Positions 14,643 through 64,000 of a stretch of DNA of 64,000 nt are shown here, in pieces. Source of the stretch: Omphalotus guepiniiformis. Its lineage: Eukaryota > Basidiomycota > Agaricomycetes > Agaricales > Omphalotaceae. Within the stretch, counting starts at the first letter, position 1; each line of letters opens with the position of its first letter. A program made the position numbers and the translations under genes. The notes under the pieces were generated by a model. The model was not told the origin of the DNA, made no database searches, and saw only the letters and a list, made by a program, of their open reading frames with translations. The stretch spans positions 558,001 through 622,000 of the forward strand of contig JAQOOI010000079.1 of the NCBI GenBank assembly GCA_028554645.1, read 5' to 3'.

Positions 14643-14891
14643 GATAGTCGTGAAGAAAGGACAAGACTTTTAACAGCTGACAGGAGTGACCATCCGTGTG
14701 ACGGCAAGCTTCTTAGTAAGCGCGTCGGCACACGAAGTTTTCTCAGAGGTTCAAACAGAGGTGACTGGTGTAAGGACTGATGTTCTCCAGAGAGTAGACT
14801 ACCCAATACATGCAAGTATGAAAGTGTTTTTATACTTATTCTGAAGAGAAATAGGAGAGTAAGAACTATATTATTCGGGAGGGGCAGGAAG
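14643..14891. other. spacer between hydrolase gene and element A
   Basis: No coding feature. It is the 5' flank of the hydrolase gene up to the presumed end of the element A LTR. The exact host/element border is uncertain because the other end of element A is outside the window, so no target duplication can be compared. Confidence 0.4.
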
Positions 14892-15047
14892 TGTTATTGA
14901 ATGAAGAAAATTTAGTAATTGAGTAGGATTGAATGAGAGTGACGAAGATAACCCATAAGAGTGGAAAAATGGCTAGCGGAACCTAAAGGAGTAGTAGACG
15001 GAGTCGGAGAAGTAATCCGTCGGCCGAATAGTCGACTGGGTGTTACA
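14892..15047 (-). repeat. probable 3' LTR of element A
   Basis: The inner edge is clear: reading the minus strand, a purine tract is followed by TGTAACACCC at 15047. The outer edge is a guess at TGTTATTG (14892 on plus). That gives TG...CA ends but only an imperfect inverted repeat, and the LTR could extend left towards 14815. Confidence 0.4.
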
Positions 15048-15076
15048 TACCTCCCCCAGTACCTGTAACGAGGTAC

Positions 15077-18697: not shown

Positions 18698-18701
18698 CCG
18701 T

Positions 18702-21799: not shown

Positions 21800-22147
21800 A
21801 TGGAAAGCCAGGCCCCTACAAAAGAGAAAAATCCTGTTAGGGCCGCGGCACCTGAGAATGATACTGAAAACAAGGGTAATGAACGACGGTTGTGGAAAGA
21901 AAAGGACGCGGTAATAGCAGCGTAATGAGCACTCTAAGACGTAGGAACTCGTCTAAACTCAAAGGTTGCCTTGTAAAAGCGAGTGTAGTCTGGCGTTGGC
22001 AAAGATTCCGCACGCAGAAAACTGACTAAAGTCGAGCTAGACTGTTGGAAAGACTAACTGAACTGTAAGATCACCGTCTAGACCCTTCGACGAGTACCAG
22101 AAACAGCAAACAGACAGACACAGACAGACAGACACAGACAGACAGAC

Positions 22148-22186
<39 letters not shown>

Positions 22187-35718: not shown

Positions 35719-35757
<39 letters not shown>

Positions 35758-38085: not shown

Positions 38086-41000
38086 TCCCAGATCAAGGAG
38101 AAGCCGCGGTGGTTTTGGAATTAAATGACGAAGGTATTCCCATTGGCATAAGTGATGTAGTATTTGCAGATATAAACGAAGAGCAAAAATCAAAGTTTGA
38201 GAAGCGAGAGTTACGCGATCTATACTTATCTGCCGCGGAAAAGTATATTGATCTAAAAAGTGATAAAGAAACGACGAGACCCGTATTGAGATCCTATTTG
38301 AGTTCGGTGTATGGAGCGCAAAATCCTGCCGCGTACTCTCAAGCAAATTTCACGGTGCAAGAAGTAGAGCTAGAAGACGGCGTAGAAGAGTTACAGCAAA
38401 TTCCCCTGTTTGATGTAAGGAGCATCGCGATGCTTGATGTATCCCCTGATATGAAAGATCAAGTGAGGAGGCACGCGTCGCGGCTGTGGAAGGAACGTTA
38501 CGAACCAATTAGTATCTTGGCAGGGAAGAAATACAAACCTGTCGCGTTGAAAACACGCCCTGTTCTAGGAGATTTACCATCGAAGTTTAGAATCATAAGA
38601 GAGATTAAAGGAGATCCATTGGCTGATATGCCGCCGCTTTCGCCTAATCCTCCAGAATTCACGCCGACTGGTAGGTATACTCAGGAACGTAAAGAGATAA
38701 TAGACGAGATACATAAGGAAGAATTCCTTTGGCCAGAAGAACGGAAGTTGATGCATCATATGATGATGCAGCAAGAGAAAGGGTTCGCGTGGGACGACAG
38801 TGAACGCGGAAGATTCAGAACAGATTTCTTTCCTTCAGTAGAGATGCCCGTGATACCTCATACACCTTGGGTTGAGAGGAACATTCCTATTCCCCCTGGT
38901 ATTTTTAATGAAGTATGCGCGGCAGTTAGACGAAAGATTGACGCGGGAGTTTACGAACCATCGAACTCGTCTTACCGATCGAAGTGGTTCGCGGTGTTAA
39001 AGAAAGACGGAAAGAGTATTCGACTAGTACATAGTTTGGAACCGTTGAACGCGGTAACAATAGCACATTCTGGTATACCGCCTGCTACTGAAGAGCTCGC
39101 GGAGAAATTCTGTGGTAGAGCTTGTGGAGGGATTCTAGATTTATATGTTGGCTATGATGAAAGAGAGTTGGCAATAGCATCGCGAGACTTAACTACATTC
39201 CAGACTCCCTTTGGAGCCCTGAGGTTAGTAACACTACCGATGGGATGGACGAATTCAGTACCAATCTTCCACGATGATGTAACACACATATTACAAGAAG
39301 AGATCCCGGAGTTTACGCAACCATACATCGATGATGTTCCTGTACGCGGTCCTGAAACGACTTATCAAAGTGAAGATGGTACGTACGAGACCATTCCTGG
39401 TAATGATGGGATACGGAGGTTTATTTGGGAACATTTCACCAATATGAATAGAGTCATTCAAAGAATGAAGTACTGTGGTGGGACTTTCTCAGGCCCCAAA
39501 GCTGTATTGTGTAAAAGCGAGATTACCGTGGTCGGACATAGGTGTACACGAGAAGGAAGAGAGATCGACCCGGAACGAGCGAAAACTATTACCAACTGGG
39601 GTGGACCTGAGAATATCCTAGAAGAGAAGGATATAAGACCATTCTTAGGCACCGCGGGACTAGTAAGAATGTTCGTCAAAGACTATGCAAAGATCGCGGA
39701 GCCTTTAACCCGATTTACGCGTAAAGATATTCCGTTCGAATGGCGACAAGAGCAAAGTGACGCGTTGGCAAAGTTGAAAGAGGCAGTAAAGAATAGCAAG
39801 GCATTACGACCACTAAAGTATGATGTGGAAGACCCTGTTATATTGGCAGTAGATACGTCGTGGAAAGCGGTTGGGTTCTATATTTGTCAAGTGGATCCAG
39901 AGAATCCGCGACGAAGGTTCTACTCCAGATTCGGTTCGATTACACTAAGTGATCGCGAAGCTAGGTTTTCACAGCCGAAACGGGAGTTGTTTGGTTTGTA
40001 TCGCGCGTTACGAGCGTGCCAGTATTGGTTGTTTGGTATTCGCAACCTTATAATCGAAACTGACGCGAAGTACATTAAAGGCATGTTAGAGCATCCTGAT
40101 CAAATGCCAAACGCCGCGATAAATAGGTGGATAGAGTCGATCATGATGTTTCATTTTAAACTGAAGCACGTACCAGGCAAGGTTCACGGACCTGATGGAC
40201 TATCACGGCGGGATAAGCAAGTAGGAGACGATGAGTATGACAATCCTGAAGATGGTGAAGTTCAAGAACCCTATAAATTAGAGGAGTTTGTAGATAAGAT
40301 TGACTCTAAGCATGGTTACGCGCAAGTATTAGTTGATGAGAAAGAGGAATGGAAAAGTAATTATATGACTGGTTTAGCCGCGTCGGTAGACGACTTTAAG
40401 GAAGAATTGACGCGTGCTTATAAGCAAGAACGAGAGTTCCGCGACATACCAGAAGTAAAACAGTTTGTAGCCGCGAACTTGGCTAGTGAAGTACCAGAAC
40501 TCGAGGAGCCACCAGAGCATATTGACGAAACAGAGTATGATGAGTCTAAGCGATCGAAGGGAGCGATAAACCAAGATAAAACAGTCGCGGAGGTTTTCAA
40601 ATGGCTAACAGACACTTCTAAGAGGCCTGTAGGCTATGAGAATAACAAACGCTTCAAGAACTTTTTAAGGTTAGCGCGGAACTTCTTTATACAAGACGGA
40701 AAACTCTATCGACGTGGAATTGAGGCAAAACATAAGCTGGTAGTTGAGAAGTCGCGTTGCGTCGCCATGATCCATGCTTGTCATGATAGTCTGGGGCACC
40801 GCGGCTTCTTCGCTACTAAATCCTTACTTATGGAACGCTTTTGGTGGCCTGAAATGGAGAAAGACATCTATGAGTATGTGAAGACCTGTCATACGTGCCA
40901 AGTAAGACAAAAGACAAAGATCAGGATTCCTCCTACCGAGACGAAGACACCGTCAATCTTTCAGAAAATTCACGCTGACACCATGTATATGCCGGCGTCG

Positions 41001-44000
41001 AATGGCTACAAGCTGATTGTACATGGTAGGTGCGCGTTAACCGGCTGGATGGAAGGAAGACCGTTGAAAGCAGAGTCCGCAAGAGCGATTGGGCAGTGGT
41101 TGTGGGAAGAAATTATATGCCGCTGGGGCTGTCTTATAGAGATAGTAACAGATAATGGCGGACCTTTTCTAAAGGCGTTGGAATGGTTAGAGAAGAAATA
41201 TGGCGTGCGCGGTATTCGCATATCACCTTATAACTCCCAAGCCAACGGTATCGTGGAACACGCGCATTATGATGTGCGACACAGTCTCATAAAGGCCGCG
41301 GGAGGTGACGATTCAAAATGGTTTTACTATTTCTACTTAGTAATGTGGGCTGATAGGTGTACCATAAGAAAGAGATTTGGGTGCTCCCCATTCTTCGCAG
41401 TAACTGGTGCGCACCCCTCGCTACCTTTTGATATCGTTGAGGCAACATGGCTTGTAGAATATCCTGATCATTTCATAAGTGACGCGGAACTAATTGGACT
41501 ACGGGCGAAAGCATTGGCTAAGCACGCGAAGCACGTAGTTGAATTGCGGGAACGCGTAACATGCGAGAAAAGGTCACGGTTGTTGAAGTTCGAAAAAGAG
41601 TATAAGTGTCAGCGACTCGAGTTATAAACTCAAATAACCAAACACAATGATCTTAGTTTCACACGAGTAAGAGAAAAGCAGAAAGTGGAATTGAGAAAAG
41701 AGACGATACAAGGAAGTATGCTAAGTACAAGTCTAAACTCGAGGAGTTATTGACAAGATCGAAGCTAAAGAAATATCTACCTAAACGGACTTATTATATA
41801 CGTAAATAAAACCCTAAACCCTGGGCTATAACCCTTGACTAATACACCGTGTGTCTACCATGAGTTCGATCGCCTCAAGTACTTCATTAATGATCGTGAT
41901 CGCCTTGAGGTCTACATGCTTGATCTCGATCATCATGCTACATACGTATGTATTTAATATAACCCTAGATCTATAACTTACGATGTTATCTACTGATAAT
42001 AAAAGTGTCTATATGTACAAACAATGAGATAAGATGAAAAAAGAAAACATTCGTAACATGACCCCCTCCTTAGGGACGATGTCCCCATCGTCCTAACTTC
42101 ACTGCTAATGCTTCTGTCGGCATCTTCTTCGTTTCTACTACTTCCGTACATGCTTCAGGGATAGGTCGTTGTCGCGACTAAAAGCGGTCTAGGCTTGAAA
42201 TCATGCAGATTGAGAAAGATTTTGGTTGTTCAAACATTGGAAACTGAACAATGAGGACTAGAGTTCACCCAGACTGCTAGTTGAAACATGAGAACACACT
42301 CAGTTACTCAAGCCTGAGTGTAGAGTTAGCTACAGTACATGATATGGTACTTAGCAACTGTGACCAATGGGATCATGGAGAGAGATACTAGTTTTGCCTC
42401 TCACTTTGTATTGGAGTACCAATGTTCCATGCTAAGTTGAGTTGGTCAGACCCACCCTCTAAAGACTAGAGACTCTCATGAGTGTTGTTTGATTGTAATC
42501 CAAGGGAATGATGGAAGTTACAATTCAATCTGAGAAACATCTAAGTCCACTGGACTACCTAACTCCAGCTGGTCTTGCTAACTCAGGTTGGCTGTAAAGA
42601 CTGAATGCTGAGAGTGCAGACAATCTTGTATTGTGCTAACCAGAGAAATATGTTGTACATTTGGTACTATGCTTAGGATGGTGTTACTACTGGTGAACCA
42701 CCTTTGTCTGTTGGCTAAAGAGGAAAAATCCTCTAAGTCATTTCTGAAGAATGGAGTTAGATACTCAAGCTATCCTACCATGGAGCTAGATGTTGATTCT
42801 GGAGTATCCCTCTGAAATGTAACATCTAACTGAGTGATACCCTGCACCCAGACACCCAAATAGGGAAGAAGAAACGATTATTGGGACATAATACTGCCCA
42901 TAGCTTGTTGCTAGAACCAGCTAAAAGGAGAAGTACCTCCTGGAGACAAATCAGATGCAAGATCTGGCCAGATAGACACATGTGCTACTGTACAGCTTGT
43001 GGATGATAGTAACAACGGAGTAGGGTCTAGATGACCTCTGAAACGAAGAAATAACCACTGGATCTGCTAGGAACCTCACCAGCAGCCCCCAGTTAGGAAA
43101 TCCAAAAGAGTTGCAAATTTCAAAATCATAAAAGATGTTGTCATATGGCACCATTCTGGACTGATATTGCGTGCTGTACACCCTGGTTAGATACCCTGGA
43201 CTTGATTGCCAAGCCACTATATGGACAAAGCGATTTTTATAACAATTTTTATACCCAAGATACCTATACATGACAGTATCTAACTGAAAAATACCTACAA
43301 AAATACCTAAAAAGACACCAATCCCTGCTCAATTAGTCTTTCTGTTATCTATTCTAGTTACTCTGCTCAGATTCCCTTACATTTTCGAGATTTACTATAT
43401 TTATTTTCTGACCTGTATATAAGAACTACCTACTTGTAGATATTTTTCCTTAAGTTAGGACTGCCTAGGCTCACTACCAAAGCAGAACTTCTTCTAGACG
43501 AAAATTGCCTGGCTCTTAGGAGTTCAGTTATAGAGAAATATACCAGTTGTGCAAACTTCTGTAAAGTCCCTTGTGGCAAACCTTGAGAGAGATACTGAAA
43601 CTGTTGCTGTCCCTGCTGTTCTGTCTGTGCTGTTCTGCCTGCTGAAACTGTTGCTGCTACTGTTCTGATTGATACTGTCACTGTTTGGACCATTGGATCG
43701 AGTTGCCCACTCTGATTATTGCCCTGAACCATCCCCTGAACCCCTGAGAAACTAGTTGCCCTCTGTCTTGAACCTGTGTTTTTGAGTTGCCCTGTCACTT
43801 ATACCCTGTTCAGAGCGGACTGCAGACACTTGCTAGCTCAGTATTGAGTTCGATTGTCGAGTTTAACTGTGCGGAACCTTTGACAACGCCAGCCACACCT
43901 CCACAAACCCCCTAGAATTGAGTTAGAGGTTGTTTCTTGAGACTCCCTCTCAGTCAAATTCTTGCACATTATCTGGAGCCCACCGCGAGGGGTGGCTTTA

Positions 44001-50000: not shown

Positions 50001-53000
50001 TCAACTTGATTTAATTAGAGACTGGTATCTGCATGGAAACCAGTATCTAACTCAATTGAGTGGGACACTCCAGAAAAAGTTCTTATCCAGAGCTGTAAAG
50101 TTCTTTGTAGACAGAGATGGTCGTCTCTATAGGAGAACTGATGATACAGGAGGCCAGCATAGACTGGTTGTGCCTAAAGAGAAAAGGATGTACATGATGC
50201 ATGCTGCTCATGATCATCTGGGACATAAAGGAATGTTTGCAACAAAAGCCCTTATAGAAAAGCGTTTTTGGTGGCCAGACTTGAATGGTGATGTCAATTG
50301 GTTTGTCAAATCCTGCCAAGTCTGCCAGAACCGCAAAATGGACTTGTTGAAAATTCCTCCCACTCTTACCCACACTCCCTCTCTGTTTCAGAAGATTCAT
50401 GTTGATGTTTTCAAAGTATCACCTGCAAGCAATGGTTGCAAAGATGTTGTACATGGCAGATGTGCACTATCATCTTGGTCTGAAGGAAGAGCTTTAAGAT
50501 CTGACAATGCTAGGTCATTGGGAGAATGGTTCTTTGATGATATTATATGCAGATGGGGTTGTCCTGATGAAGTTGTAACTGATAATGCACCCCAAATGCG
50601 AGCTATGCTTAAATGGCTAGAAGAGAAATATGGAATTAAAGGGATTAACATATCTCCTTACAATTCACAAGCCAATGGCAAGATTGAGAGAGCCCACTTT
50701 GACATTAGAACTGCCCTTGCAAAAGCTACAGGGGGAGATTTAAAAAGATGGTGGTGGTTTCTCAAGCATGTCTTCTGGGCAGATAGAATTACAGCTAGAA
50801 AGGGACTTGGATGTTCACCATACTTCCTTGTTACCGGTGCTGAACCTATTTTACCCTTAGATATTGTTGAGTCCACTTGGTTGGTAAAACTACCAGATAG
50901 AATTCTGACATATGAGGAACTTATTGGCTATAGAGCTCAAGCTCTAGCTAAACATAGAACCCATGTTCAAGAAATGATATCCAGGATAGATACTACCAAG
51001 AGGGATACTCTAAGACAATATGAAGAAGAATACAGAAATGTTATCAGAGACTTTGATTTCAAACCTGGTACATTAGTACAAATCAGAAATACACAAGTTG
51101 AGAAGAACTTGGACAGGAAAATGTATCCTAGATACTTGGGACCCATGATTGTAATAAGGAGAACCAAAGGGGGATCCTACATTGTGGCCCAAATGGATGG
51201 TACTGTACTCAGAGAAAAGGTTGCTGCCTTCAGAGTACTGCCCCATGTTGCTAGATATGAACCAATTGAACTGCCTGAGAACATTCATGAACTTATAGAC
51301 TTGACTAGTGAACAGCTAGAAGCCATGGTTAATGAAAACACGGAGTTAGATAGTGAACTTGAAAGGGATTATATCTTTGACAGTATTCCTCAGTTGAGAA
51401 TTCCTGTTGATGATGAAGACTTAGAAGAGTTCACTGATGAAGAAGCTGCATCTGACAATGATGTAGATGAAGAAGAACCTGATTGGGATGCTCCAATGCA
51501 GACCAGGGCTCGCTCTTCAAAGAGATAGAAAGATAAAACACACTGTATTCGAAAAAGTAGCTAGTTAGATACTCGAGAGAGACTATCTAGCTCAATGAAA
51601 AATAAATAAAAGTGTAAAAAGTAGTTCTAAACTACTAAGATGAACGAAAAAGGATATTCTAAATACTCGAGGATGTCCTATGTGATGTACCAGTGACGTG
51701 TATACTACCTATACATTGAAACTAAGGTGCTAAAAAGTAACATCTAGTTCAGTGTTAAGTCTGCAGGAGGAAATTCATGAAATGGAGCTGGGTCTGAAGC
51801 TACTGCTGGACCTGCCTGCAAGGGATCCTGAGAGGCACGATTGGCCTTCTCTTTCGCCTTCCTGAGCTGCTCCAACTTGGAATATTCCTGGTAGGCAAAC
51901 CTGTACTGAGAATGGTGATACTGGATAGCATGTTGGTGAACACTGAGTTCAGTCCTCAGAAAGTTGGAAATAGAGTGGAGGACTTCTGGAGAGAAGTGGT
52001 CAAGGTCCATGAACGGAAATAAAGCCGTAATACGATTGACTATCTCTTCTCCACTCTCCCTGAGTTTGCGCTCATCTGTAAAGCATAGAGTTAGATACTC
52101 GACGCGGTACCAGATTGAGTTAGATACTCATGCTCTGTCTCTTCACTAAGGTTGACAAAGGGCTTCTCAATGTGAGGCTTCTTCTGACTACCAGCCTTGG
52201 GAGTTTCTGGGACAGTCTCAGGCTATAGGAGCAATAAACAGTCAGTCATGCTGTACTTAGCAACTCAGAGTAAAATAACACTTACCACTTTGGACTGAAT
52301 TGGATTGGCCTATATGGTCCAAAAGACGTTCAAAGTAAGTAAAAGAGATGAAATAATAAGGCTGGGAAAGGATACCTACCACTGGAGTAGTAGGTACTAC
52401 TTTGTCCTTAGCAGTCTTAGCAGCTGCACTAGGGGTGTTGGTAACCTTGCCTGAGTCCTTGCTATCCTTCTTGGGAGCATGGATGGACGCAGAGAGTCCC
52501 AGGGCTGGTCCATCAGCCATCTGAAAAATGAAAGGAAAGGAAAATTAGAAATTATTCAGGCCACTATGGAGTTAGATACTCAACAGTAACGTCTCCGTCG
52601 CCTGTAATAACTTCGATTTCCTCATCCTCATCATCGTCGTCATCAACAAGCTCAGGAGTTTTTTCTGGCTGCACATAAACAGGCAGTTAGATACTCAAGG
52701 TGACGAGGATACTTGAGAAAAATGTTTATTGTGTACATGCAATGAGGACATTGCAGTTCATTTTGCTTTGGGGGAGAGGGCATAGGCAGATTCAAAGCAA
52801 AATACAAGAAATTTTTGATTTTCTCAAAGATTCTATGATATTGAGCTCTGGAATTGCTTTTACCTTCAAGATACTAGATGTTTTAAACAGTCAAACATTG
52901 AATATCCCTTTGGAAGCGTAAATTGACTTCAATGTTAGATGAAATTCATGAGTTCTGATTGACTTAGAGACTCAAACAAGTAACATCTAGCTGAAATATG

Positions 53001-56000
53001 ACTTAAATGTTGTATTGAGTGAGATGTTGCATGTAAAGACTTAGTATCAAACCTGTTTATACAGTTTGGTGTTGAGTGAATGAAATATTTGAAGTTCTAT
53101 GAGCTTTACTTCATGATGTACTAAGATCTTAGAATATATCTTACTACTTGGTAAGTATAGCTCTATGGTCTAAGTACAAGAGAAATAGTAACTGTTAAGT
53201 GCTAGACTTTGCATTTTAAGAATGCTAAAGTGTACTTATACAGTGTCAGCAATGATAAATGAAAGCACAAGAATCATTCACCTTCTGTTAAAAGAAGATA
53301 GATGGTCAAATCAAGAAATTCCATATAACAGAGATGTTGTTATAAAAGATTAATGAGAAAGAAATACTGGTTGATCTAGTTGCTTACTTGACAACCAAGG
53401 CTATTATGCCTGAACAAGATAGAACAAGTGGAATCCCTAGAGATGTATTCTTCAGGAGGCTCAGGAAGATGTTAAAAGAATGAGAGTTCCTTTGACTTTG
53501 ATCTGAACTTCAACAGAAACAGCAATGGGGTTCACTGAAAGTGGCACTGTCTAAGGCATGCTGAATGAGAAATGCATTGATCTGTGATCAAGACAAGACA
53601 GAGATCTGCTTGGCAGTTCACTGTGACAAGGTGTCAACGTGATAGTAAAGCAATTGACTTGACTTCTGTGACTATCTACCTGAAAAAGTAGTATCTAACT
53701 CGATATTGGCCATCATGGACGATCGAGGTCGATCTTATTTTACTTTGAGGGAGATGTCGCGACTAAAAGCGGTCTAGGCTTGAAATCATGCAGATTGAGA
53801 AAGATTTTGGTTGTTCAAACATTGGAAACTGAACAATGAGGACTAGAGTTCACCCAGACTGCTAGTTGAAACATGAGAACACACTCAGTTACTCAAGCCT
53901 GAGTGTAGAGTTAGCTACAGTACATGATATGGTACTTAGCAACTGTGACCAATGGGATCATGGAGAGAGATACTAGTTTTGCCTCTCACTTTGTATTGGA
54001 GTACCAATGTTCCATGCTAAGTTGAGTTGGTCAGACCCACCCTCTAAAGACTAGAGACTCTCATGAGTGTTGTTTGATTGTAATCCAAGGGAATGATGGA
54101 AGTTACAATTCAATCTGAGAAACATCTAAGTCCACTGGACTACCTAACTCCAGCTGGTCTTGCTAACTCAGGTTGGCTGTAAAGACTGAATGCTGAGAGT
54201 GCAGACAATCTTGTATTGTGCTAACCAGAGAAATATGTTGTACATTTGGTACTATGCTTAGGATGGTGTTACTACTGGTGAACCACCTTTGTCTGTTGGC
54301 TAAAGAGGAAAAATCCTCTAAGTCATTTCTGAAGAATGGAGTTAGATACTCAAGCTATCCTACCATGGAGCTAGATGTTGATTCTGGAGTATCCCTCTGA
54401 AATGTAACATCTAACTGAGTGATACCCTGCACCCAGACACCCAAATAGGGAAGAAGAAACGATTATTGGGACATAATACTGCCCATAGCTTGTTGCTAGA
54501 ACCAGCTAAAAGGAGAAGTACCTCCTGGAGACAAATCAGATGCAAGATCTGGCCAGATAGACACATGTGCTACTGTACAGCTTGTGGATGATAGTAACAA
54601 CGGAGTAGGGTCTAGATGACCTCTGAAACGAAGAAATAACCACTGGATCTGCTAGGAACCTCACCAGCAGCCCCCAGTTAGGAAATCCAAAAGAGTTGCA
54701 AATTTCAAAATCATAAAAGATGTTGTCATATGGCACCATTCTGGACTGATATTGCGTGCTGTACACCCTGGTTAGATACCCTGGACTTGATTGCCAAGCC
54801 ACTATATGGACAAAGCGATTTTTATAACAATTTTTATACCCAAGATACCTATACATGACAGTATCTAACTGAAAAATACCTACAAAAATACCTAAAAAGA
54901 CACCAATCCCTGCTCAATTAGTCTTTCTGTTATCTATTCTAGTTACTCTGCTCAGATTCCCTTACATTTTCGAGATTTACTATATTTATTTTCTGACCTG
55001 TATATAAGAACTACCTACTTGTAGATATTTTTCCTTAAGTTAGGACTGCCTAGGCTCACTACCAAAGCAGAACTTCTTCTAGACGAAAATTGCCTGGCTC
55101 TTAGGAGTTCAGTTATAGAGAAATATACCAGTTGTGCAAACTTCTGTAAAGTCCCTTGTGGCAAACCTTGAGAGAGATACTGAAACTGTTGCTGTCCCTG
55201 CTGTTCTGTCTGTGCTGTTCTGCCTGCTGAAACTGTTGCTGCTACTGTTCTGATTGATACTGTCACTGTTTGGACCATTGGATCGAGTTGCCCACTCTGA
55301 TTATTGCCCTGAACCATCCCCTGAACCCCTGAGAAACTAGTTGCCCTCTGTCTTGAACCTGTGTTTTTGAGTTGCCCTGTCACTTATACCCTGTTCAGAG
55401 CGGACTGCAGACACTTGCTAGCTCAGTATTGAGTTCGATTGTCGAGTTTAACTGTGCGGAACCTTTGACAACGCCAGCCACACCTCCACAAACCCCCTAG
55501 AATTGAGTTAGAGGTTGTTTCTTGAGACTCCCTCTCAGTCAAATTCTTGCACATTATCGTAACAATGATGTCGGGAATAAGGAAATTGGGACCTCAATCT
55601 TTCTTAACTGAGGTGGTCGTGGTTTAGTGGGGAATTTTTTATGGAACTCTTCGATTGCTTCTTTTGCGTTTGCAAGGTTTGCTAATGGTTCCCATGTTTG
55701 TTCGTGCCGCGAGTATCCCTTCCATTGAACTTTGTATCCAAATCTCCCTCCCCTATATTTCCCTGAATCTACTATTTCTTCCACTTCGAACTCCGGTTCT
55801 TCTCCTTCTATCACTGGTGGCGGATTATCATTCTTAGGCTGCTCGGGGAATTCAGGCGGATGATAGGGTGACAGTAAAACTTCGTTAAAGACTGGATGTA
55901 TTCTCTTCCAAGTCTTCGGAATCTTTAGCTGGTATGACGTTGCTCCAATTTTCTTTACAACTTCGAAAGGACCAAATCGTTTATCATCCAACTTCTTCAT

Positions 56001-59000: not shown

Positions 59001-61471
59001 CATTCTGGTGAATTCGGCGGATAACGTTCTCTCACAGGTTTTGAATCGGACTTTGTAGATACTGACGCAAATTTATTCTCAGGATGATTAAATACAAAGT
59101 GAAAATTGCTGTCCTTGTGATCTACACTAGACTGTTCCGATTCTAACTCAGAAGGACCTGTATTCACTTCTGAGCCCTGACAAAACCCGTATCCGATTTC
59201 AACCAGTTCAAGAACCAGCTCGGCGGCTGTTCTTCTTTCTTCTCTTCTTCCTGCACGTTCACCTGCCTCACTCTCTGACCCCGCTTTGCTGGACAATCCC
59301 GCGAGATATGCCCCCTCTGTCCACAATTGAAACACTGCCCATTCCTTCGGGCCGCGTTAATGTCCATGGGTTTACCTGTACCCCCAAAGGTCGTTCCTGT
59401 GGCGTCTCTCCGATCACCACTTCCTGCCGCTTGCTGCGGACTTTGTTCCCTTCTTGGCGTAAACGCCGGTCTGTTCTGGTTCTTGCGCCATTCCTGACGC
59501 CTTCTCCATAGTTGATCAATCTTGATCACTACGTCCTTCCATTCATCGTACACTTTGGGCAACTCGTCCCTCGTGTAGATGGCATCAATAGTTTTCTCGT
59601 TAATGCCCTTCTCAATAAGCCGCACCACATACGGGTCATCCTTCTTGTAATCTGCCTCCGTCAACAGTATCTCCAACTCCTGGAAATACTCCTCCGCCGT
59701 CCCCGCTCCCTGCTTCAACAACTCCACCTTCTCCTGCACTGTCCTCTGCAGACCGGAATCTAGGAACGCCTTGTTCAAGGCTTGCTTGAATTGCGCCCAG
59801 TCCTTCTGCCACTTCTCGTTGTCTTGGTCAAAATGGGTATTGTAGTAATTATTGACCCATCCGTCTACAAGCTTTCCATTCATGAAAGAGATCGCAACAT
59901 CGATCCTTTCATCATCTGTCGTGATACCGTTTTTCTTATCACGGATGTATGTGAAGAGTCTTCGACGCCAATTCTTGAATTCGGATTTGACACCGGTGAA
60001 GTTATCGGGTTTGTTGAGGAGTGATTTTCCTCGCGAAGTTTCGATTTCAGACATTCTGATAGGAGTATGAGGTCGGGTAGAATAGGGAGATGATGAAAGA
60101 GATTTGTATGAAGGTGTGACAGGTGATGGGATAGTGGTTTCTTCGAAGAGACTGCTAAAGTTCCCCCAAGATTCCGTAATGGTAGAGTTTACTTCGGTCC
60201 GTCAGTAACCTCACGAAGAGATTTCGGGACCTTTTCTGCCTCTAATAAACGAGTTCCTAAATCCGTGCTCACTTGCTGAGTAAACCTGGGCGTGCCTTTC
60301 TAGGAGTGCACCTCGTTCCCCAAGCGCAAAGTCCCTTCCCCGAAGGTCAGTTATCAGACGATGCTTTCTGCTGCCAGTACAGAGTCGGACTCAACGTTAC
60401 TCTTTTGTACTATAGGCGCAATTACTCTATTAGAGCACAGATTCCTAATTCGGACGGAAACCCGAATATCAAAGGGAGAAAAATGAAGTAAACGTGTGAA
60501 GGTGAAGAGAAACTTACTTGCTACTGAAATAGCAACAAGAAGGCAAACTTGAATTGTGTTGGTCGGGTGAGTTGTGTTAGCTTCGATCTTATGTCAGCGA
60601 CTCGAGTTATAAACTCAAATAACCAAACACAATGATCTTAGTTTCACACGAGTAAGAGAAAAGCAGAAAGTGGAATTGAGAAAAGAGACGATACAAGGAA
60701 GTATGCTAAGTACAAGTCTAAACTCGAGGAGTTATTGACAAGATCGAAGCTAAAGAAATATCTACCTAAACGGACTTATTATATACGTAAATAAAACCCT
60801 AAACCCTGGGCTATAACCCTTGACTAATACACCGTGTGTCTACCATGAGTTCGATCGCCTCAAGTACTTCATTAATGATCGTGATCGCCTTGAGGTCTAC
60901 ATGCTTGATCTCGATCATCATGCTACATACGTATGTATTTAATATAACCCTAGATCTATAACTTACGATGTTATCTACTGATAATAAAAGTGTCTATATG
61001 TACAAACAATGAGATAAGATGAAAAAAGAAAACATTCGTAACAATAAGTATGTTATTAAAGACTACGCGTTTAAGCCAGGTAGTTTGGTATTAGTTAGGA
61101 ATACTCAGATTGAAAAATCTTTGAACTCTAAAACGAAGCCGCGCTATTTAGGACCTATGGTAGTACTCAGGCGTACCACAGGTGGCAGTTACATTGTGGC
61201 AGACCTAAATGGTGCGGTGTTCCAGAATAAAATCGGAGCCTTCCGCGTAATTCCATATTGGCCAAGGTCGCACATTGAACTCCCTGAGAACCTAAGGGAG
61301 TTGATTGGTTTGTCAGAAGATGGCTTGTTGAGAATTGAACAAGGTCTAGAAGAAGAAGAAGAAGATTTATCCGTAGAACACGATCAAGCAGACCTAGATG
61401 GTGAAATTCACGCGGACGTTTCAGTATACGACGCGAAGCACTGGATATCGAAGCCGAAGATCTTTCAGTAA
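38059..61471 (+). CDS. element B pol: RT, RNase H, integrase, split by element E
   Basis: Pieces 38059..41606 and 61049..61471; the duplication ATAAG is counted once. The junction reads KFEKEYK-YVIKDYAFK in frame. RT: GILDLYVGYDER and QPYIDDVPVRGP. RNase H: LAVDTSWKAVG, QPKRELFGL, IETDAKYIKGML, HGPDGLSR. Integrase: CHDSLGHRGFFATK with CHTCQ, then HADTMYMPASNG, IVTDNGGP and NGIVEHAHYD. A GPF-like PRYLGPMVVLRRTTGG is in the right piece, then an acidic tail ending KPKIFQ. It is about 40-60% like C and D by eye. Apart from E, no stop or frameshift was seen. Confidence 0.85.
41607..42058 (-). repeat. 3' LTR of element E (452 bp)
   Basis: TGTCAGCGACTC...CATTCGTAACA on plus. I found no difference from the other copy at 60592-61043. 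Confidence 0.93.
42170..43971 (+). repeat. 5' LTR of element D (1802 bp)
   Basis: TGTCGCGACTAAAAGCGG ... CTTGCACATTA. Ends directly before TC + primer-binding site. Contains two TTAGATACT words (42757, 43275) and several near-matches. The small open frames recur in both LTRs only because the LTRs are identical. Confidence 0.93.
43974..43990 (+). promoter_or_regulatory. primer-binding site of element D
   Basis: TGGAGCCCACCGCGAGG two nucleotides after the LTR, identical to B and C. Confidence 0.75.
44112..46064 (+). CDS. element D gag
   Basis: The frame is open from 44112 but the first ATG is at 44484 (MSTTGEQANPGEG). The pre-ATG segment includes VKISSSRKSTHPRQTRNSVRAGTEEL in part, which aligns with C gag upstream of its own first ATG. 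The capsid-like region has LVAWLAELENIFVSTGTKTDAAKVMLALRYM. The zinc knuckle is CYMCDEPGHRSVDC near 45650. The tail ends SESKN with stop at 46062-46064 directly after GAAAAAC (46055-46061). The protease ATG is 11 nt beyond the first stop base. Confidence 0.85.
   Translation, partial: KLLQGKHSYILRVCFVKISSSRKSTHPRQTRNSVRAGTEELPLNQLPRRKSSKGKEKEVSPEPESSPLSSLSSLSPIPERNLPEFAELSARYKKNKRKFLNSPQFFSLTHKRIPVRIVKDKRNNMSTTGEQANPGEGTQGQGPTENLTPRSEILSLGIAPDIQIPAPAILELQNEKLPKVSKHAPIFDKRHPSELVAWLAELENIFVSTGTKTDAAKVMLALRYMEFHTKAEFQRLEAVRNLDWLAFKEALMKNFPESADRGLGSRQKLYAIVEEYKLIVLGAIQKLMAFKREYEIEYEKLSSGATPVVSNSEAVAGFLSALDEPFRRKLLDRLENKVINGHIHVQREDDPFTLKDVMSEAEKLCSVKRAGGYNFGLFMNGPSIAEGYSRALPTPEQSATRKLYDPYQVATTVKAEPDQWAMKLSATVDSHQNQFNQIRQAQESNLAALAKLSETVANLAKMTQVTSSSMRMNMNAPIQNSGSGMNSNGHNGAPRSSQVSSVHNNSHSDSNCYMCDEPGHRSVDCPHQLRFIRLGWMTKNSAGKWALKDGVYWPRADPSDTRSKKDKIEEIARRHGWDQSPTHVDQNLYAFEEEDTAVMAGPSQNSSLDAINSLVAQFSHVCTTLQNLAPVANSEKKQILKRDSTSESKN
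46073..47473 (+). CDS. element D protease ORF
   Basis: Starts MKEFGVEDVFSQH. Linker, then a retropepsin-like core with VIDSGSQIVSMD, ARNVPFTFGEITIYMQIHV and DVLLGRPFDV. It stops at 47471-47473, six codons after AAATTTT. Collinear with the C protease over most of its length. Confidence 0.88.
   Translation: MKEFGVEDVFSQHPSHRASQTPEDFNLAKRKKMEVLLPTLKPSEKEKYRPPAMRKEQVRFELPVESDTEEPESPSDMEFDTARRVSNRPFDNVKAIDRPPIPKGAPVGSQHKSKEGDITQSRTREGMNSDTKNAIVYTKPLRKSEPDFKLRNSLFKPGLAEEIADKIFRSEIDISSGDLIAISPALQKIMQRKLKNSRVYKRPIKAFVQEVRDEDDPEYGTQLEEDVTLSKATYMVNVDDMAYEREDVFIILDEDTGDLKKGSVVHKDVVDQYQRDIPSEERDKIIIVASQTDSLKAIYPKINYSDQQIETVIDSGSQIVSMDTRVAIGLGLRWDPATVIHMQSANGQLQATRGLARNVPFTFGEITIYMQIHVIDKVPYDVLLGRPFDVLTSSVIRNFETGEQEITITDPNSGMKCTMGTYDRGHGVKVKPVPSELKLVPETQKSSSIPLKPEGETQNFHRTLMN
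47446..47452 (+). promoter_or_regulatory. putative -1 frameshift site, D protease to pol
   Basis: A AAT TTT in the protease frame (CAA AAT TTT CAT). The -1 frame reads FSSDLNELIKDQGEVAV and runs into RT without an early ATG. Confidence 0.72.
47449..51528 (+). CDS. element D pol: RT, RNase H, integrase
   Basis: RT: GLLDIFVGYDER, LPMGWTNSVPIYHDD, KPYIDDVPVKGP. RNase H: LSVDTSWMAVG, QPKRELYGL, VETDASYIKGML, GPDGLSRPP. Integrase: HDHLGHKGMFATK with CQVCQ, HVDVFKVSPASNG, VVTDNAPQM, NGKIERAHFD. GPF-like block YPRYLGPMIVIRRTKGG and an acidic tail ending TRARSSKR. There is no chromodomain. It is close to C pol along its whole length. It carries at least five TTAGATACT words in coding sequence. No inactivating change was seen; with identical LTRs this element may be active. 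Confidence 0.9.
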   Translation, partial: FSSDLNELIKDQGEVAVCIEIDDDGNATIAGFKLPDAKLFSEPEKAEAFVFAAESSIREKDKGAADTVRSYLNRSVDSEKKQVYCTWRENQTLDENLELDTPPAPVYNEEPVSKRQQKRIDKCKSVKEKHKQSPLRPRWSRNANGNKFAELVTVLASRKYKPVAVKVKPVKATLPAEFRIERKIIGNPLKDMPELPTHPPEFTPGERYTQERKEIIDKNHNEGFLWPEEMKLVHHLMKVQEKSFAWEASEGGTFNTEFFPPVKFPVLPHTPWVERNIPIPPGIYDQVCKMIKDKIDAGVYEPSSSSYRSKWFCVLKKDGKSLRLVHSLEPLNKVTIQHSGIPPATADIARSFSGRACLGLLDIFVGYDERLVDESSRDLTTFQTPFGPHRLVKLPMGWTNSVPIYHDDVTYIFRDEIPHVTKPYIDDVPVKGPATRYETPDGGYETIPENSGIRRFVWEHLQNMNRIVQRMKHAGGTFAGTKAFICVAEGDVVGHHVSYEGEKPVERLAEVVLTCDASKWSEKKDIRSFLGTAGQMRMFIKDYAKKARPLTILTGDVPFQMGPAELEAVEMIKDGIRNAPALRPIDYDLSSGITLSVDTSWMAVGFQLYQTDPLDPKKKYYNWMGSITLNEREARFSQPKRELYGLMLALQQTYYQTYGCRELTVETDASYIKGMLDKPSSGPNATINRWIEEIRKFHFTLVHIKGTEHKGPDGLSRPPRGTIPTERAASRDPDSFIDEDDGLPVKFRMGDGETESPFEFESFKDEIDTRGGYLQDVAKSIDDFEDDLQEAIEEERHLNSIRALLLTQYPVSNSVLQFAQTLVVPEGGTEWTHEHPYQEDHRSASTKELDDQLDLIRDWYLHGNQYLTQLSGTLQKKFLSRAVKFFVDRDGRLYRRTDDTGGQHRLVVPKEKRMYMMHAAHDHLGHKGMFATKALIEKRFWWPDLNGDVNWFVKSCQVCQNRKMDLLKIPPTLTHTPSLFQKIHVDVFKVSPASNGCKDVVHGRCALSSWSEGRALRSDNARSLGEWFFDDIICRWGCPDEVVTDNAPQMRAMLKWLEEKYGIKGINISPYNSQANGKIERAHFDIRTALAKATGGDLKRWWWFLKHVFWADRITARKGLGCSPYFLVTGAEPILPLDIVESTWLVKLPDRILTYEELIGYRAQALAKHRTHVQEMISRIDTTKRDTLRQYEEEYRNVIRDFDFKPGTLVQIRNTQVEKNLDRKMYPRYLGPMIVIRRTKGGSYIVAQMDGTVLREKVAAFRVLPHVARYEPIELPENIHELIDLTSEQLEAMVNENTELDSELERDYIFDSIPQLRIPVDDEDLEEFTDEEAASDNDVDEEEPDWDAPMQTRARSSKR
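51744..52690 (-). pseudogene. truncated antisense accessory gene A2 of element D
   Basis: Exons recognisable on the minus strand: about 52676-52590 (EKTPELVDDDDDEDEEIEVITG), about 52520-52375 (ALGLSASIHAPKKDSKDSG ... TTPV), short exons near 52310 and 52225-52155 (PKAGSQKKPHIEKPFVNL), and a last exon about 52078-51744 (SPEVLHSISNFLRTELSVHQHAIQYHHSQYRF, ending FHEFPPADLTLN). These align in order with exons 3-6 of A2 in element C. No counterpart of C exons 1-2 is seen: upstream of the acidic exon the sequence goes within about 100 bp into a polypurine-like tract. A methionine exists before the ALGLSAS block, so a shorter protein is possible. Confidence 0.65.
52761..52778 (+). promoter_or_regulatory. 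internal polypurine-like tract of element D
   Basis: TTTTGCTTTGGGGGAGAG resembles the tract in front of the D 3' LTR (TTTTACTTTGAGGGAGA, 53738-53754) and the C tract. It sits just upstream of the A2 remnant, as in C. Confidence 0.55.
52779..53737. other. gene-free stretch of element D where A1 sits in C and B
   Basis: AT-rich, with no frame resembling A1 on either strand. Several near-copies of the D word occur (AACATCTAGCT near 52980). It is either a decayed A1 or a replaced segment. Confidence 0.5.
53738..53754 (+). promoter_or_regulatory. polypurine tract of element D
   Basis: TTTTACTTTGAGGGAGA ends immediately before the 3' LTR start TGTCGCG. Confidence 0.75.
53755..55556 (+). repeat. 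3' LTR of element D (1802 bp)
   Basis: Same length and apparently the same sequence as 42170-43971. Confidence 0.93.
59164..60054 (-). CDS. element E gag
   Basis: MSEIETSRGKSLLNKPDNFTG at 60054. A typical Ty3/gypsy capsid region (FKNWRRRLFTYIRDKKNGI, WAQFKQALNKAFLDSG, EEYFQELEILLTEADY) is followed by a zinc knuckle, CFNCGQRGHISRDC. It ends FVRAQK with stop at 59164. The pol frame overlaps and is entered at GGGTTTT (59182-59188 complement) by a -1 shift. Intact as read. Confidence 0.9.
   Translation of the reverse strand: MSEIETSRGKSLLNKPDNFTGVKSEFKNWRRRLFTYIRDKKNGITTDDERIDVAISFMNGKLVDGWVNNYYNTHFDQDNEKWQKDWAQFKQALNKAFLDSGLQRTVQEKVELLKQGAGTAEEYFQELEILLTEADYKKDDPYVVRLIEKGINEKTIDAIYTRDELPKVYDEWKDVVIKIDQLWRRRQEWRKNQNRPAFTPRREQSPQQAAGSGDRRDATGTTFGGTGKPMDINAARRNGQCFNCGQRGHISRDCPAKRGQRVRQVNVQEEEKKEEQPPSWFLNWLKSDTGFVRAQK
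59182..59188 (-). promoter_or_regulatory. putative -1 frameshift site, E gag to pol
   Basis: G GGT TTT in the gag frame (ACG GGT TTT GTC) on the minus strand. The -1 frame reads GFCQGSEVNTGPSE and stays open into protease. Confidence 0.68.
60055..60576. other. 5' leader of element E
   Basis: About 520 bp between primer-binding site and gag start, with no protein-like frame. It probably holds the packaging signal; nothing specific was recognised. Confidence 0.5.
60577..60590 (-). promoter_or_regulatory. self-priming primer-binding site of element E
   Basis: On the minus (RNA-sense) strand this reads AAGATCGAAGCTAA, one nucleotide after the 5' LTR. It is exactly complementary to TTAGCTTCGATCTT, located in the LTR at the complement of 60740-60753. 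This is the arrangement known for self-primed Tf1/sushi elements, where the 5' end of the RNA folds back as primer. It does not start with TGG as a tRNA 3'-end site would. Confidence 0.72.
60592..61043 (-). repeat. 5' LTR of element E (452 bp)
   Basis: Identical by eye to 41607-42058. On the minus strand a TATA-like word (TATATAATAAG, complement of about 60777-60787) lies about 32 nt upstream of the 14-nt primer sequence (complement 60740-60753). Confidence 0.93.
60740..60787 (-). promoter_or_regulatory. predicted E core promoter and RNA 5' end
   Basis: TATA-like sequence followed about 32 nt later by TTAGCTTCGATCTT. A transcript starting there would carry the self-primer at its extreme 5' end. 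Confidence 0.6.
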
Positions 61472-61691
61472 ATCACTCAAAAGATAGGGCCACATGGCAG
61501 TTTTATTATAAAAACGAGTGTATGATCTGTACGTGTTATGTTGAAATATACGCGACAAATTGGAAATAAATAAGTTTACGCGATAGTTGAATACAAGTGC
61601 GGAAGGGAAACGGAAAGTTACGTGGTACCTCTATTCACGACAAGAAGATTAAAAAGTGTCGCGGAAGCACAAGAAAAGTTCCAGAAGCAGT

Positions 61692-63131
61692 TCAAGTATC
61701 AGTCACGGAGGGCATATCTTCGTCGCCAGTCATATCGATAAGGGGAACGTTAGTTTTATTAACCAGCTCCTTCTGCTGCGACGCGATGCTCTGGTAGCTC
61801 TTCATCAGCAAATCCCGCATTTGGAGCTGGAGACTGATCTGATGGTTGACCGCGATAAGTTTAGAGCGAGTCTCGAACTCCAGCATGGTGAGGCTACGAT
61901 CAGTAGGCCCACTAACGGGTTCGAGCACCGCGAGATTGGCACGATCAACGAGTGACTGCACAACCGAGTTAGAGAAAGTGGAGACAGGGTCTACCAAAAG
62001 ATAGGTTAGTTGAAAAGTCGCTAGCGGCGGTATGAAAACGTGACACGTACTAGGGGGTGCCAGAGGTGGATCGAGCATAGAGAAGTTGTGCGCCCAAGTA
62101 GGAGGAGCTGCCGCGACACTAACCACCTCCATCTTAGCTTTCTTGGCAGGAGGATTGATGGTACTCTTATCCACCGCGGCAACTGCCTTAAGGTATTGCC
62201 GTGAAGTAATAAGCATGCGTGGTATCTCAGAAAAGTGGAGATATCTTACGAGGTGATTAGTCGACGCGTGAGGCTATGAAAGGAGCGTTAAGTCAGAATA
62301 ACATTGGGAGAAGGAATGGTGGTCGTACCCTTTTAACTGCCGCGACGCTAGGCTCAACCTTTGGAGTAAAGGGGGCAACGCGGGTAACTTCTTCAACTGC
62401 TGCGAGGTCGAGAGTCTGAAGCGAGGTACATAGTTTTAGCAACAGAGCAAGCTGGCTCGGGGTAGGGTGGCGACCTACCGTGGTATTAGTAGTGGAATCT
62501 GCAATAGAGGGGGATTCATCGTCACCCATAGCAATATCGCTACCCGCCGCGTCGTCGTCAACCTCCTCGTCACTACTATCAATACGAGCTTGGGATGCAA
62601 TACGCTTGCGAATCTAGGAAAAAGTTTTAGTACCAGTGGTTATTCAAGAAAAAGAACTGATTACTTACGCGGCGGCTAGTACGAACGCGACCTTTGCCTT
62701 TGACGGGCACTGGGGTTACAGCAGTTGGAACAGGAGCAGCCGCGGCGACTTTGGGAACCTCCTTGGGTTTACCAAACTGAACACATTTACCGCGGTACGG
62801 ACCAAGTAAATGATGAGTTGGTGTATACTTCGCGGTAACTGGGTCCCGCGGCAGTTGTTCAAAGAAGAACAGAGTGAAAGTACGAATGTCAGCGTTAGCC
62901 AACGCGGCATCAGGGTGAGCTTTCCAGAGCTCGAGCTAAAAAGAGTGAAGTAAGGCGCAGGAACAGAAGGCAGAACATTAGAAAACTTGCGAGTTTTTGT
63001 GCACACGACATCGCGACGCGATTAGCATCATCGGCACCACGTTTGACTCGACGCTCGCTAAACGACTTGTAAAGAGGTGCTACCTCTTCCACGAGAAACT
63101 GGACGTCAACAGAAGAAGTATCAGTAGACAT
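61692..63131 (-). CDS. antisense accessory gene A2 of element B
   Basis: Multi-exon minus-strand gene, opposite to B. It starts MSTDTSSVDVQFLVEEVAPLYKSFSERRVKRG at 63131. Further exons are about 62936-62669 (LELWKAHPDAALANADIRTFTLFFFEQLP ... KGKGRVRTSRR), about 62613-62480 (RKRIASQARIDSSDEEVDDDAAGSDIAM), about 62405-62330 (VEEVTRVAPFTPKVEPSVAAVKR), short ones, about 62225-62050 (INPPAKKAKMEVV ... WAHNFSMLDPPLAPP), and a last exon ending at 61692 with FETRSKLIAVNHQISLQLQMRDLLMKSYQ. The basic KKAK and RVRTSRR segments and the acidic stretch suggest a nuclear protein. It occupies the place of A2 in C and has the same overall plan (acidic exon, helical last exon), but sequence identity is low. 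Some splice sites, especially the first donor, are uncertain. It ends 220 bp from the convergent pol stop. Confidence 0.65.
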
Positions 63132-63615
63132 AAGTGATTCAGATAGGAAGAACTTAGTGTTTGGAGGTCCTTTTATAACTGGCCAGGGCAGTCTGGACCA
63201 GAAGGAAACTTGTCCGCGTAGAATTCTAATTCCGCGCACCGTCCTTCAAAGTTGACGCGGTGGACATATGGTACTTTACCAAGCGTCGCGAGTGTTCTGA
63301 ACAACTGGGGACAGTTGTGATTTCAAAGATGGGGAAGGGTCGTAGGAATAGAAAGCACCGCGTACAGTTTAGTACCGCGTAGAATCGCGTGAATTTGGGA
63401 AAAGTGCCGCGTAGAATTTCTTGAATATTTTCGATTTTATAGAACAAGGAAAATGTCACACAGTTTAAAATCACTCGAGACAAAGCTAATAACATTTCCA
63501 AGTAATAAAATAAAGAAAAAAAAACAAGCTCCGCGATACTACAAACACTACGAGACTAAGAGCTTTTACTTCCGCGGAACCAGAGCAAGAAAATGAACAG
63601 AGAAGGCAGGGACCA

Positions 63616-64000
63616 CTATTTCTGATATGCCTGATGTTCGGATGCCGCGTTGATTGATTTGAGCTGCCCAGCCTCGATGGCGGGCAGGATCTTCTCATCC
63701 ACAATCATTTGAGCAAGGTCACCACTAAGGCGGACCTGCGTCAAATAGTCGCGACCGAAGTTATAGTAACCCTGTACTAAAACATCCGCGAGTTCGTCGA
63801 TCTTGGCTTGAGCCATTTTCTGAATACCGTGCATCGCGGCAACTTGTTCATTCAAGCGGTCAGTAAGCATTGACGCTTCAAGTTGCAGAGACATAGCATC
63901 TAAAGGAAAGATCAGAGAAAAGGGAAAGTAGTAAGGGAGAAGACATACGGCGCGCAGAAAAGAGTCCGCGGTTGTGAAAAGCTTCATCCTCCAACGCGAT
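63616..64000 (-). CDS. antisense accessory gene A1 of element B, 3' end
   Basis: Exon 63949..64000 and last exon 63616..63899, joined by a GT-AG intron. The product fragment reads FHNRGLFSAR, then HAMSLQLEASMLTDRLNEQVAAMHG, a helical region, and ends SINAASEHQAYQK. In C the A1 intron falls at the same place, before NLSLEVSSLVEKIASYEQM, so the two look homologous. The zinc-cluster exon expected upstream would lie beyond the window. Confidence 0.6.
   Translation of the reverse strand, partial: SRWRMKLFTTADSFLRAVCLLPYYFPFSLIFPLDAMSLQLEASMLTDRLNEQVAAMHGIQKMAQAKIDELADVLVQGYYNFGRDYLTQVRLSGDLAQMIVDEKILPAIEAGQLKSINAASEHQAYQK

Follow-up and report, generated by a model that had tools for sequence, protein, structure and literature searches.

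A spliced two-gene antisense module with an allelic A1 gene in long terminal repeat retrotransposons of Omphalotus guepiniiformis

We analyzed a 64,000-nucleotide (nt) stretch of the Omphalotus guepiniiformis genome (contig JAQOOI010000079.1, positions 558,001 to 622,000; hereafter, the window), in which three long terminal repeat (LTR) retrotransposons, namely C, B, and D, carry intron-containing genes or their remnants between pol and the 3′ LTR, on the strand opposite to gag-pol. These genes, A1 and A2, constitute a two-gene antisense module that is passed on with its element and recombines independently of pol. In families C and B, A1 forms a bounded cassette, with deeply diverged alleles residing on a shared backbone. 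All genome-wide searches described below covered the 42.5 Mb assembly (80 contigs), of which the window is a part; L-numbers denote genome stretches fetched for comparison, with L061 being the continuation beyond the window end and L034 the window's own C copy.

An antisense module inherited with its element

Element C lies on the minus strand and carries both genes on the plus strand. Its A1 gene, a type I allele, encodes 539 amino acids (aa) in six exons (23925-24161, 24214-24390, 24448-24573, 24625-24954, 25009-25207, and 25259-25809), the fifth of which (25009..25207, plus strand) contains a six-cysteine cluster, CX2CX8CX11CX2CX6C. A2 encodes 354 aa in another six exons (26568-26720, 26771-26956, 27013-27096, 27147-27254, 27307-27493, and 27546-27892). 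A1 lies nearer the 3′ LTR and A2 nearer pol, and every intron of both genes is GT-AG. The two genes agree with an earlier note on this DNA, which had described two apparently intact six-exon genes here. The 3′ ends of the genes were set manually to the earliest in-frame stop codon in the last exon; automatic gene models overran these stops.

In B, the window holds a second antisense gene in the A2 position (61692-63131, minus strand; exons near 62935-62720 and in 62613-62329 and 62273-61692, with the first intron and its phase uncertain), together with the 3′ end of an A1-like gene (63619..64000, minus strand), whose last exon spans ~63619-63899 and whose six-cysteine exon (63949-64129) crosses the window end. 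When completed with L061, this A1-like gene has seven exons and encodes ~615 aa. The earlier note had likened the B pair to that of C, which holds for position, order, strand, and the six-cysteine cluster, whereas homology is unproven by profile comparison of the B and C antisense genes (E values of 0.074 and 0.065, not significant); we consider the B pair likely homologous to the C pair. D keeps only exons 3-6 of A2 (51744..52690, minus strand), as the earlier note had it. A2 exons 1-2 and A1 were looked for in the window's D copy (51529-53754) and not found, and other D copies do have A1 (e.g., L077).

The genome search assigned A2-type last exons to five families, namely C (36 places), D (17), D′ (45), F5 (22), and B (33). 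Their last-exon identity to D is 69-81% in D′ and 31-34% in F5, and A2 aligns end to end among C, D′, and F5, with identities to C of 36% (D′) and 27% (F5). With the 3′ end of C pol as the query, 131 of 348 candidate places were scored, and an A2-type exon faces 120 of these 131 listed pol 3′ ends on the opposite strand, the remaining 11 being without one. Conversely, a listed convergent pol end was present at 120 of the 153 A2-type places, with 411-574 nt between the two matches, and no same-strand pol end was found at any of the 153 among the matches listed. Of the 33 A2-type places without a pol end among the matches listed, 20 belong to family B, the pol matches of which fall at the edge of the 131 of 348. 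All 30 C-family A2 loci that we fetched (of 36 places) show the same arrangement, with A2 separated from the pol end by a gap of 191 nt, the pol match being shortened to 621 nt in L049. No stand-alone host homolog of A1 or A2 was seen in the genome among the part of the places that was inspected. The antisense position relative to pol, anticipated by the earlier note, was thus recovered genome-wide, and its claim that the genes are element-borne rather than captured host DNA stands across the five families.

The coding capacity and splice sites of A2 are kept in most copies. Among 30 C-family copies, 27 have no internal stop and 29 retain GT/AG at all five introns, consistent with the earlier proposal that introns of antisense genes survive retrotransposition. 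The pooled ratio of nonsynonymous to synonymous polymorphism (pN/pS) over the 30 copies, with the window copy included twice (as the reference and as L034), is 0.135; four copies have a 1-nt insertion in the gene region, in either an exon or an intron. Codon changes common to at least four copies comprise 14 synonymous and two nonsynonymous ones (255 versus 807 sites), as opposed to 35 and 40 private changes, which is the pattern expected if active lineages are constrained and inserted copies decay. For A1, we compared the type II reference (the second allele class of C, described below) with other type II copies at a synonymous divergence (dS) above 0.02, which gave eight comparisons. The ratio of nonsynonymous divergence (dN) to dS was 0.09 for L019, 0.12 for L022, 0.12 for L023, 0.11 for L024, 0.17 for L067, and 0.08 for L073, with two outliers, namely L071 (0.79) and the degraded L068 (0.56; eight stops). 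Changes found in at least four type II copies number 18 synonymous and six nonsynonymous (405 versus 1233 sites), and private changes 174 and 283. In addition, dN/dS is 0.11 for the A2 last exon of D versus D′, and 0.38 and 0.43 for the last exon of the second gene of B in two old copies. The ratios are therefore mostly well below 1 for both genes (A2 pooled, 0.135; A1, 0.08-0.17 in six of eight comparisons), unlike the value near 1 by which the earlier note would have been refuted. A1 and A2 are protein-coding antisense genes under purifying selection, with introns that have come through many cycles of retrotransposition.

A1 as an allelic cassette

When classified by last-exon match, 35 A1 copies of the C family comprise six of type I, 28 of type II, and one chimera; three remnants come in addition. 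Last-exon identity to the window A1 is 90-99% for type I (the window copy counted in) and 49-57% for type II. The two types share 57% protein identity by search and 59% by alignment, with dS at ~2.2 (saturated) and dN at 0.32, and their introns (44-57% nucleotide identity) are as diverged as their exons (52-66%). The divergence is bounded. In the three type II copies fetched, the LTR and the region upstream of A1 are 94.6-99.3% identical to type I; two of them retain 99.0-99.3% upstream identity up to 23965, ~40 nt inside exon 1, and the third aligns up to 24144 at 94.6%. Past the A1 stop, identity between the types returns to 87-100%, and the approximate limits of the divergent cassette in C are 23965..25820 (plus strand). 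An association of A1 type with LTR type was rejected in C, given the 94.6-99.3% identity of LTR and upstream sequence across types. Both types include young and older copies.

We compared the backbones of five type I and 23 type II copies (A2 plus pol; 2855 columns; L049 and the chimera left out) and found zero fixed differences and 43 shared polymorphisms between the types. The mean backbone distance is 0.0125 between types and 0.0139 within types, a difference matched by random labels in 1222 of 2000 permutations, and type I copies take up at least three separate positions in the backbone tree, some of them weakly supported. Thus, in C, the A1 allele type does not track backbone ancestry. 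The chimera (L025/L020) is of type I through exon 4 and of type II from exon 5, placing its crossover near the start of the six-cysteine exon.

Separately, L069 (C77:85600-92400) contains a third, more diverged A1-like copy with ~69% identity to type I over most of exons 1-4; this copy is broken by several kb, including a piece that matches a stretch at the LTR end of C.

Family B likewise holds two groups of A1, with the main A1 exon 89-96% identical at 18 places (the window's own among them) and 49-56% identical at 15 places. Seven of the 15 divergent copies adjoin a second gene that is 98-99% identical. One divergent copy (L076) was compared at the sequence level in 100-nt windows. Upstream, its identity is 99-100% in the two windows available before the B interruption and 70-77% in the two windows before the ATG; it then amounts to 32-76% in A1, 42-95% in the intergenic region, and 87-100% in the second gene (82% in the last window).

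A separate history of the module and pol is also suggested by D and D′, for which dS is 0.36 at the pol end (412 codons), 1.29 in the A2 last exon (107 codons), and 1.32 in the A1 last exon (168 codons), so that the antisense genes exceed the pol end ~3.5-fold (L062/L077 versus the window's D); identity is 57% for A1 and 93% for pol. This contrast implies separate histories unless synonymous rates differ strongly, and by these sequence comparisons, the antisense genes of D and D′ look older than their pol. Moreover, at least seven of the 17 D copies, including that of the window, are without A1 within 5 kb among the matches listed. Since the window's D has no A1 but has identical LTRs, A1 is dispensable in cis, which fits either a trans-acting product or a dispensable one.

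Family-specific DNA words and candidate functions of A1

A scan of short words, in which observed counts were compared with a first-order expectation by family, showed that D/D′, C, and B bear different dispersed motifs. D contains AGATACT 23 times (2.5 expected) and AGTTAGA 19 times (2.8 expected), with GAGTTAGATACTC as an extended form, and D′ contains the same words nine (1.0 expected) and five (1.2 expected) times, respectively. In C, CTAGACC occurs 20 times (1.7 expected) and TCGACGA 15 times (1.4 expected), and in B, CGCGGAA occurs 16 times (1.4 expected) and CCGCGG 22 times (1.7 expected). The candidate target words are TCTAGACC or TCGACGA for C, GAGTTAGATACTC for D, and CCGCGG for B. 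F5 has a weaker word, ATAAAG (33 versus 9.0 expected in 9.5 kb; 11 versus 4.2 in pol, reached in 0 of 1000 synonymous shuffles). The words are near expectation in other families, with the exceptions of AGATACT in the chromovirus-type element E (3 versus 0.4) and in an old D-like element at 14-19 kb (8 versus 0.9), and of TCGACGA in 13.9 kb of host DNA (5 versus 1.9). In D and C, they are located in the LTR, gag-pol, and the antisense region, and in B, in pol and the antisense region. The 13-mer GAGTTAGATACTC occurs 327 times in the genome (reversed control, zero), and 73 of 100 listed places fall no more than 12 kb from an A2 place of D or D′, a zone that makes up at most 3.5% of the genome.

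Synonymous codon shuffles of gag-pol reached the observed counts in none of 1000 trials for AGATACT and AGTTAGA in D, CTAGACC in C, and CGCGGAA and CCGCGG in B; in E, AGATACT (two copies) was reached in 21 of 1000. When the best of all 7-mers was scored against synonymous shuffles, D, C, and B each gave 0 of 200, as compared with 32 of 200 for E. The gag-pol words occur in both orientations, in all three frames in D and in two frames in C, and the D word is oriented 7 to 5 in gag-pol and 3 to 1 in the LTR. On the whole, this distribution fits recognition of double-stranded DNA better than of RNA. An RNA-level role of the D word had been considered for its sense bias in the antisense region and because its complement contains CTAAC, a branch-point-like word; this candidate was set aside, as gag-pol and LTR show both orientations.

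In the A1 protein, an N-terminal stretch is followed by an acidic middle rich in lysine and proline (judged by eye), then by the six cysteines and a predicted long helix (low confidence). All six cysteines are conserved in seven of seven sequences compared. The Zn2Cys6 consensus is CX2CX6CX5-12CX2CX6-8C followed by a coiled coil; B fits this spacing, whereas the first loop is 8-10 residues long in C, D, D′, and F5. Zn_clus (PF00172) was unmatched at E values up to 1 in three A1 proteins (C-I, B, and D′), and an assignment of A1 to the ordinary GAL4-type factors was accordingly dropped as a membership claim. Comparison of A1 with solved structures gave nothing significant. Two B alleles that share a backbone have 86% identity in the cysteine segment and 55-56% beside it, and D and D′ have 73% in that segment. 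The C-I and C-II segments, at 65%, are hardly better kept than the rest of A1. In the reading favored below, the part outside the cysteine cluster would be under diversifying pressure.

A comparable accessory protein is VANC of the VANDAL transposons. VANC21 recognizes YAGTATTAY, which is enriched in its own family (PMC5735166, as far as its text was available), and the family words of VANC proteins differ between related VANDAL elements (available parts of PMC5735166 and PMC10398659). Both systems, so far as these texts describe VANC, combine an element-encoded accessory protein with a dense family-specific short motif that differs between related families; here, such enrichment was found in D, C, and B, in the antisense region of D′, and weakly in F5. 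VANDAL elements are plant DNA transposons, whereas the carriers of A1 and A2 are fungal LTR retrotransposons. With less than even confidence, we read A1 as a possible family-specific nuclear regulator with VANC-like anti-silencing activity and A2 as its partner, the two being encoded by an element-borne module. In such a scheme, A1 and A2 would be transcribed in antisense from a putative promoter located in the element's 3′ part, and their introns would survive because the sense genomic RNA is unspliced in that region. A1 would act in trans in the nucleus, where it would recognize the motif of its own family and keep family copies expressible, as VANC does for VANDAL transposons, with A2 acting as its partner. 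The body of A1 may evolve rapidly as ancient alleles are exchanged, owing to its being targeted by a host factor or by resident copies of the element, and the DNA word and the cysteine cluster reading it would change mainly between families. Copies without A1, such as the window's D, would stay mobile because A1 works in trans. A more specific version, in which each family has a private self-recognition, with A1 binding a word written throughout the element, even at synonymous gag-pol sites, and with ancient A1 alleles held by balancing selection as the cassette is exchanged among backbones, strikes us as rather doubtful.

Several observations weigh against such a role. What connects A1 to a family motif is an association at the sequence level. 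The cysteine cluster has no Pfam match, no Pfam family reached the cut-off in the five A1/A2 proteins scanned, and the single-sequence structure prediction of A1 is poor (predicted local distance difference test score of 42). C alleles I and II have the same motifs on their backbones but only 65% identity in the cysteine segment, and F5 has A1, yet its word is weak and different. Furthermore, the best 7-mer of F5 (3 of 200) differs from the word in its antisense region; the D word is present in the antisense region of D′ but absent (zero occurrences) from 1245 nt of the D′ pol end; and 27 of the 100 listed GAGTTAGATACTC places have no A2 place of D or D′ nearby. Synonymous shuffles reach TCGACGA in C in 25 of 1000 trials and CGCGGCA in B in 12 of 1000, and in C, the strongest shuffle is level with the observed best-7-mer score after rounding (7.2). 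AGATACT is sense-biased in the antisense regions of D (6 to 1) and D′ (8 to 1). Finally, VANC targets, in the texts cited above, are tandem arrays in noncoding DNA, whereas the motifs here are dispersed and also lie in coding sequence.

The main rival to VANC-like anti-silencing, which we regard as possible though doubtful, is self-restriction with allele escape, in which A1 (or A1 with A2) would limit new insertions of elements bearing the same A1, in the manner of Ty1 p22 toward canonical Ty1, and an element with a different A1 would escape and spread, so that one backbone would keep diverged alleles. The deeply diverged A1 alleles on a shared backbone in C, their recurrence in B, and the chimera are what such a process may leave behind. 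In Ty1 of yeast, canonical elements gained a diverged gag, the determinant of restriction, by recombination onto a Ty1′-like element, and as in A1, a diverged gene was thereby swapped on a common backbone, the exchange being linked in Ty1 to self-control by p22/p18 (PMC7055915, as far as available). The Ty1 inhibitor, however, is gag-derived and encoded on the sense strand, whereas A1 and A2 are antisense and without similarity to C gag (A1, best E value of 0.033 over 27 residues; A2 profile, 0.19), which argues against a gag-derived dominant negative. Self-restriction would also leave the family motifs unexplained.

Two further explanations appear unlikely. A1 and A2 might antagonize a host protein of silencing or nuclear import through protein contacts, with the motifs serving host transcription factors, packaging, or other ends. 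The rapid divergence of A1 relative to pol between D and D′, the acidic, lysine- and proline-rich stretches of A1, and the preference of the D word for the sense orientation within the antisense region are compatible with antagonism, but the motifs differ by family within one host, which is unexpected for a shared host factor. The A1 dimorphism might instead be a trace of recombination history, a single template switch having imported a foreign A1 before both forms spread neutrally, which is similarly improbable. Reverse transcription does recombine co-packaged RNAs, and one chimera is present; however, type I occupies at least three places in the backbone tree (some with low support), each type has young and older copies, and B also has several divergent A1 forms. 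In addition, both B alleles compared carry CGCGG at ~5 times expectation (26 versus 5.4 and 31 versus 6.5), so both have probably resided in B elements for long and neither looks freshly imported. It is very improbable that the genes are captured host genes or noncoding antisense RNA without an element function, as the absence of A1 from the window's D with its identical LTRs, and from six more of the 17 D copies within 5 kb among the matches listed, might suggest, in view of the constant place, strand, and order in five families, the purifying selection, and the conserved splice sites.

The carrier elements, related systems, and significance

The carriers are nested across 20022-66110, with C and E inserted in B, D in E, and a second D copy in B at ~66110 (LTR at L061:3110-4922, 99.5% identity). 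C splits B between its gag-like frame (20022-21791, on the far side of C) and its protease-pol part (36988..41606, plus strand), and E, a chromovirus-type element with LTRs at 41607-42058 and 60592-61043, interrupts B pol, the 3′ end of which resumes at 61044..61471 (plus strand). The LTRs of C, namely the 3′ LTR on the antisense-gene side (21912..23416, minus strand) and the 5′ LTR (35483..36987, minus strand), are 99.93% identical over 1505 nt, and the former contains a ACAGACAG simple repeat at 22100-22190. Between them, on the minus strand, are pol (28084..32223; RNase H and H2C2 integrase domains by Pfam), a protease frame (32133..33536; DUF4100 and Asp_protease_2 by Pfam), and a gag frame (33494..35326), which was assigned by position and by a zinc-knuckle-like stretch judged by eye; the Pfam scan gave no gag profile match. 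The LTRs of D (5′, 42170..43973; 3′, 53755..55558; both on the plus strand) are 100% identical over 1804 nt and enclose gag (44112-46064), protease (46052-47473), and pol (47434-51528) frames on the plus strand, the Pfam scan of D covering pol. The window further includes a host gene (3-2699) in which Pfam recognizes the fungal domain Mcp5_PH, and an older element with D-like LTR stretches at 74-78% identity (14000-19000). As a side observation, C is inserted in B at CGCGGAA, a motif of B itself, with a 4-nt GCGG flanking C on both sides (n=1).

The LTR pairs (C and D), the protease (C), and the RNase H and H2C2 integrase domains (Pfam) are those of Ty3-type LTR retrotransposons. RVT_1 was unmatched at an E value of 0.001 in the pol of C (28084-32223), D (47434-51528), and B (38010-41627), and matched in E; judged by these domains, C, D, and B represent a diverged Ty3-type lineage without an RVT_1 match, with DUF4100 beside the protease in C. 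The 3′ end of C pol had no match in a viral contig collection.

Antisense genes are known from other retro-elements. The HBZ gene of human T-cell leukemia virus type 1 is a spliced antisense regulatory gene encoding a bZIP factor, with a transcript that starts in the 3′ LTR; no bZIP domain was matched by Pfam among the A1/A2 proteins scanned. In fungi, the antisense gene brtn of the Boty element was reportedly described by Zhao et al. in 2011. It lies between pol and the 3′ LTR of Boty, in Botrytis cinerea and Sclerotinia, as cited in the parts available of PMC7264820 and PMC8365987; likened by description, Boty and the elements described here are both fungal LTR elements with an antisense position between pol and the 3′ LTR, with one gene in Boty and two here. 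In plant Ty3 elements (Grande gene23, RIRE2, and Retand TRP28), antisense open reading frames (ORFs) occupy the same place and strand and are kept in most copies, 104 antisense ORFs are reported for Retand clusters, and the Grande product is reported to be nuclear, gene23 having an upstream promoter (PMC11963269 and PMC7264820, in the portions available). The word "intron" is absent from the main texts of both papers, and those portions describe neither allele cassettes nor family words for plants; the TRP28 domain (PF04195), for its part, was unmatched at E values up to 1 in the five A1/A2 proteins scanned. Another kind of anti-silencing gene, the TET/JBP dioxygenases, has been proposed for fungal DNA transposons (PMC12730594, as far as available). 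In the literature covered, which includes few subscription papers and some only in part, we found no two-gene multi-intron antisense module in basidiomycete elements, no A1-like cassettes, and no family-wide words, and the main text of a paper on Laccaria transposable elements (PMC3411680) contains none of "antisense", "opposite strand", "additional ORF", or "accessory". The earlier note knew of no such module in fungi, which, so far as these sources reach, holds for the two-gene spliced form, whereas a single antisense gene in the fungal Ty3-type element Boty was already known. New with respect to these sources is the two-gene spliced antisense module with an allelic A1, single antisense genes being known from plants and Boty.

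The function of antisense genes in LTR retrotransposons has been called unknown (PMC7264820 and PMC11963269, in the parts available). Here, one genome offers five families, ~150 module places, an allele series, a chimera, deletions, and candidate target words, which makes this function testable in vitro. Our findings mean that intron-containing genes can persist for long in a retro-element if they are antisense, and that a transposon gene can retain alleles of deep divergence even as the remainder of the element is homogenized. The family words, in turn, hint at a self-recognition or anti-silencing system.

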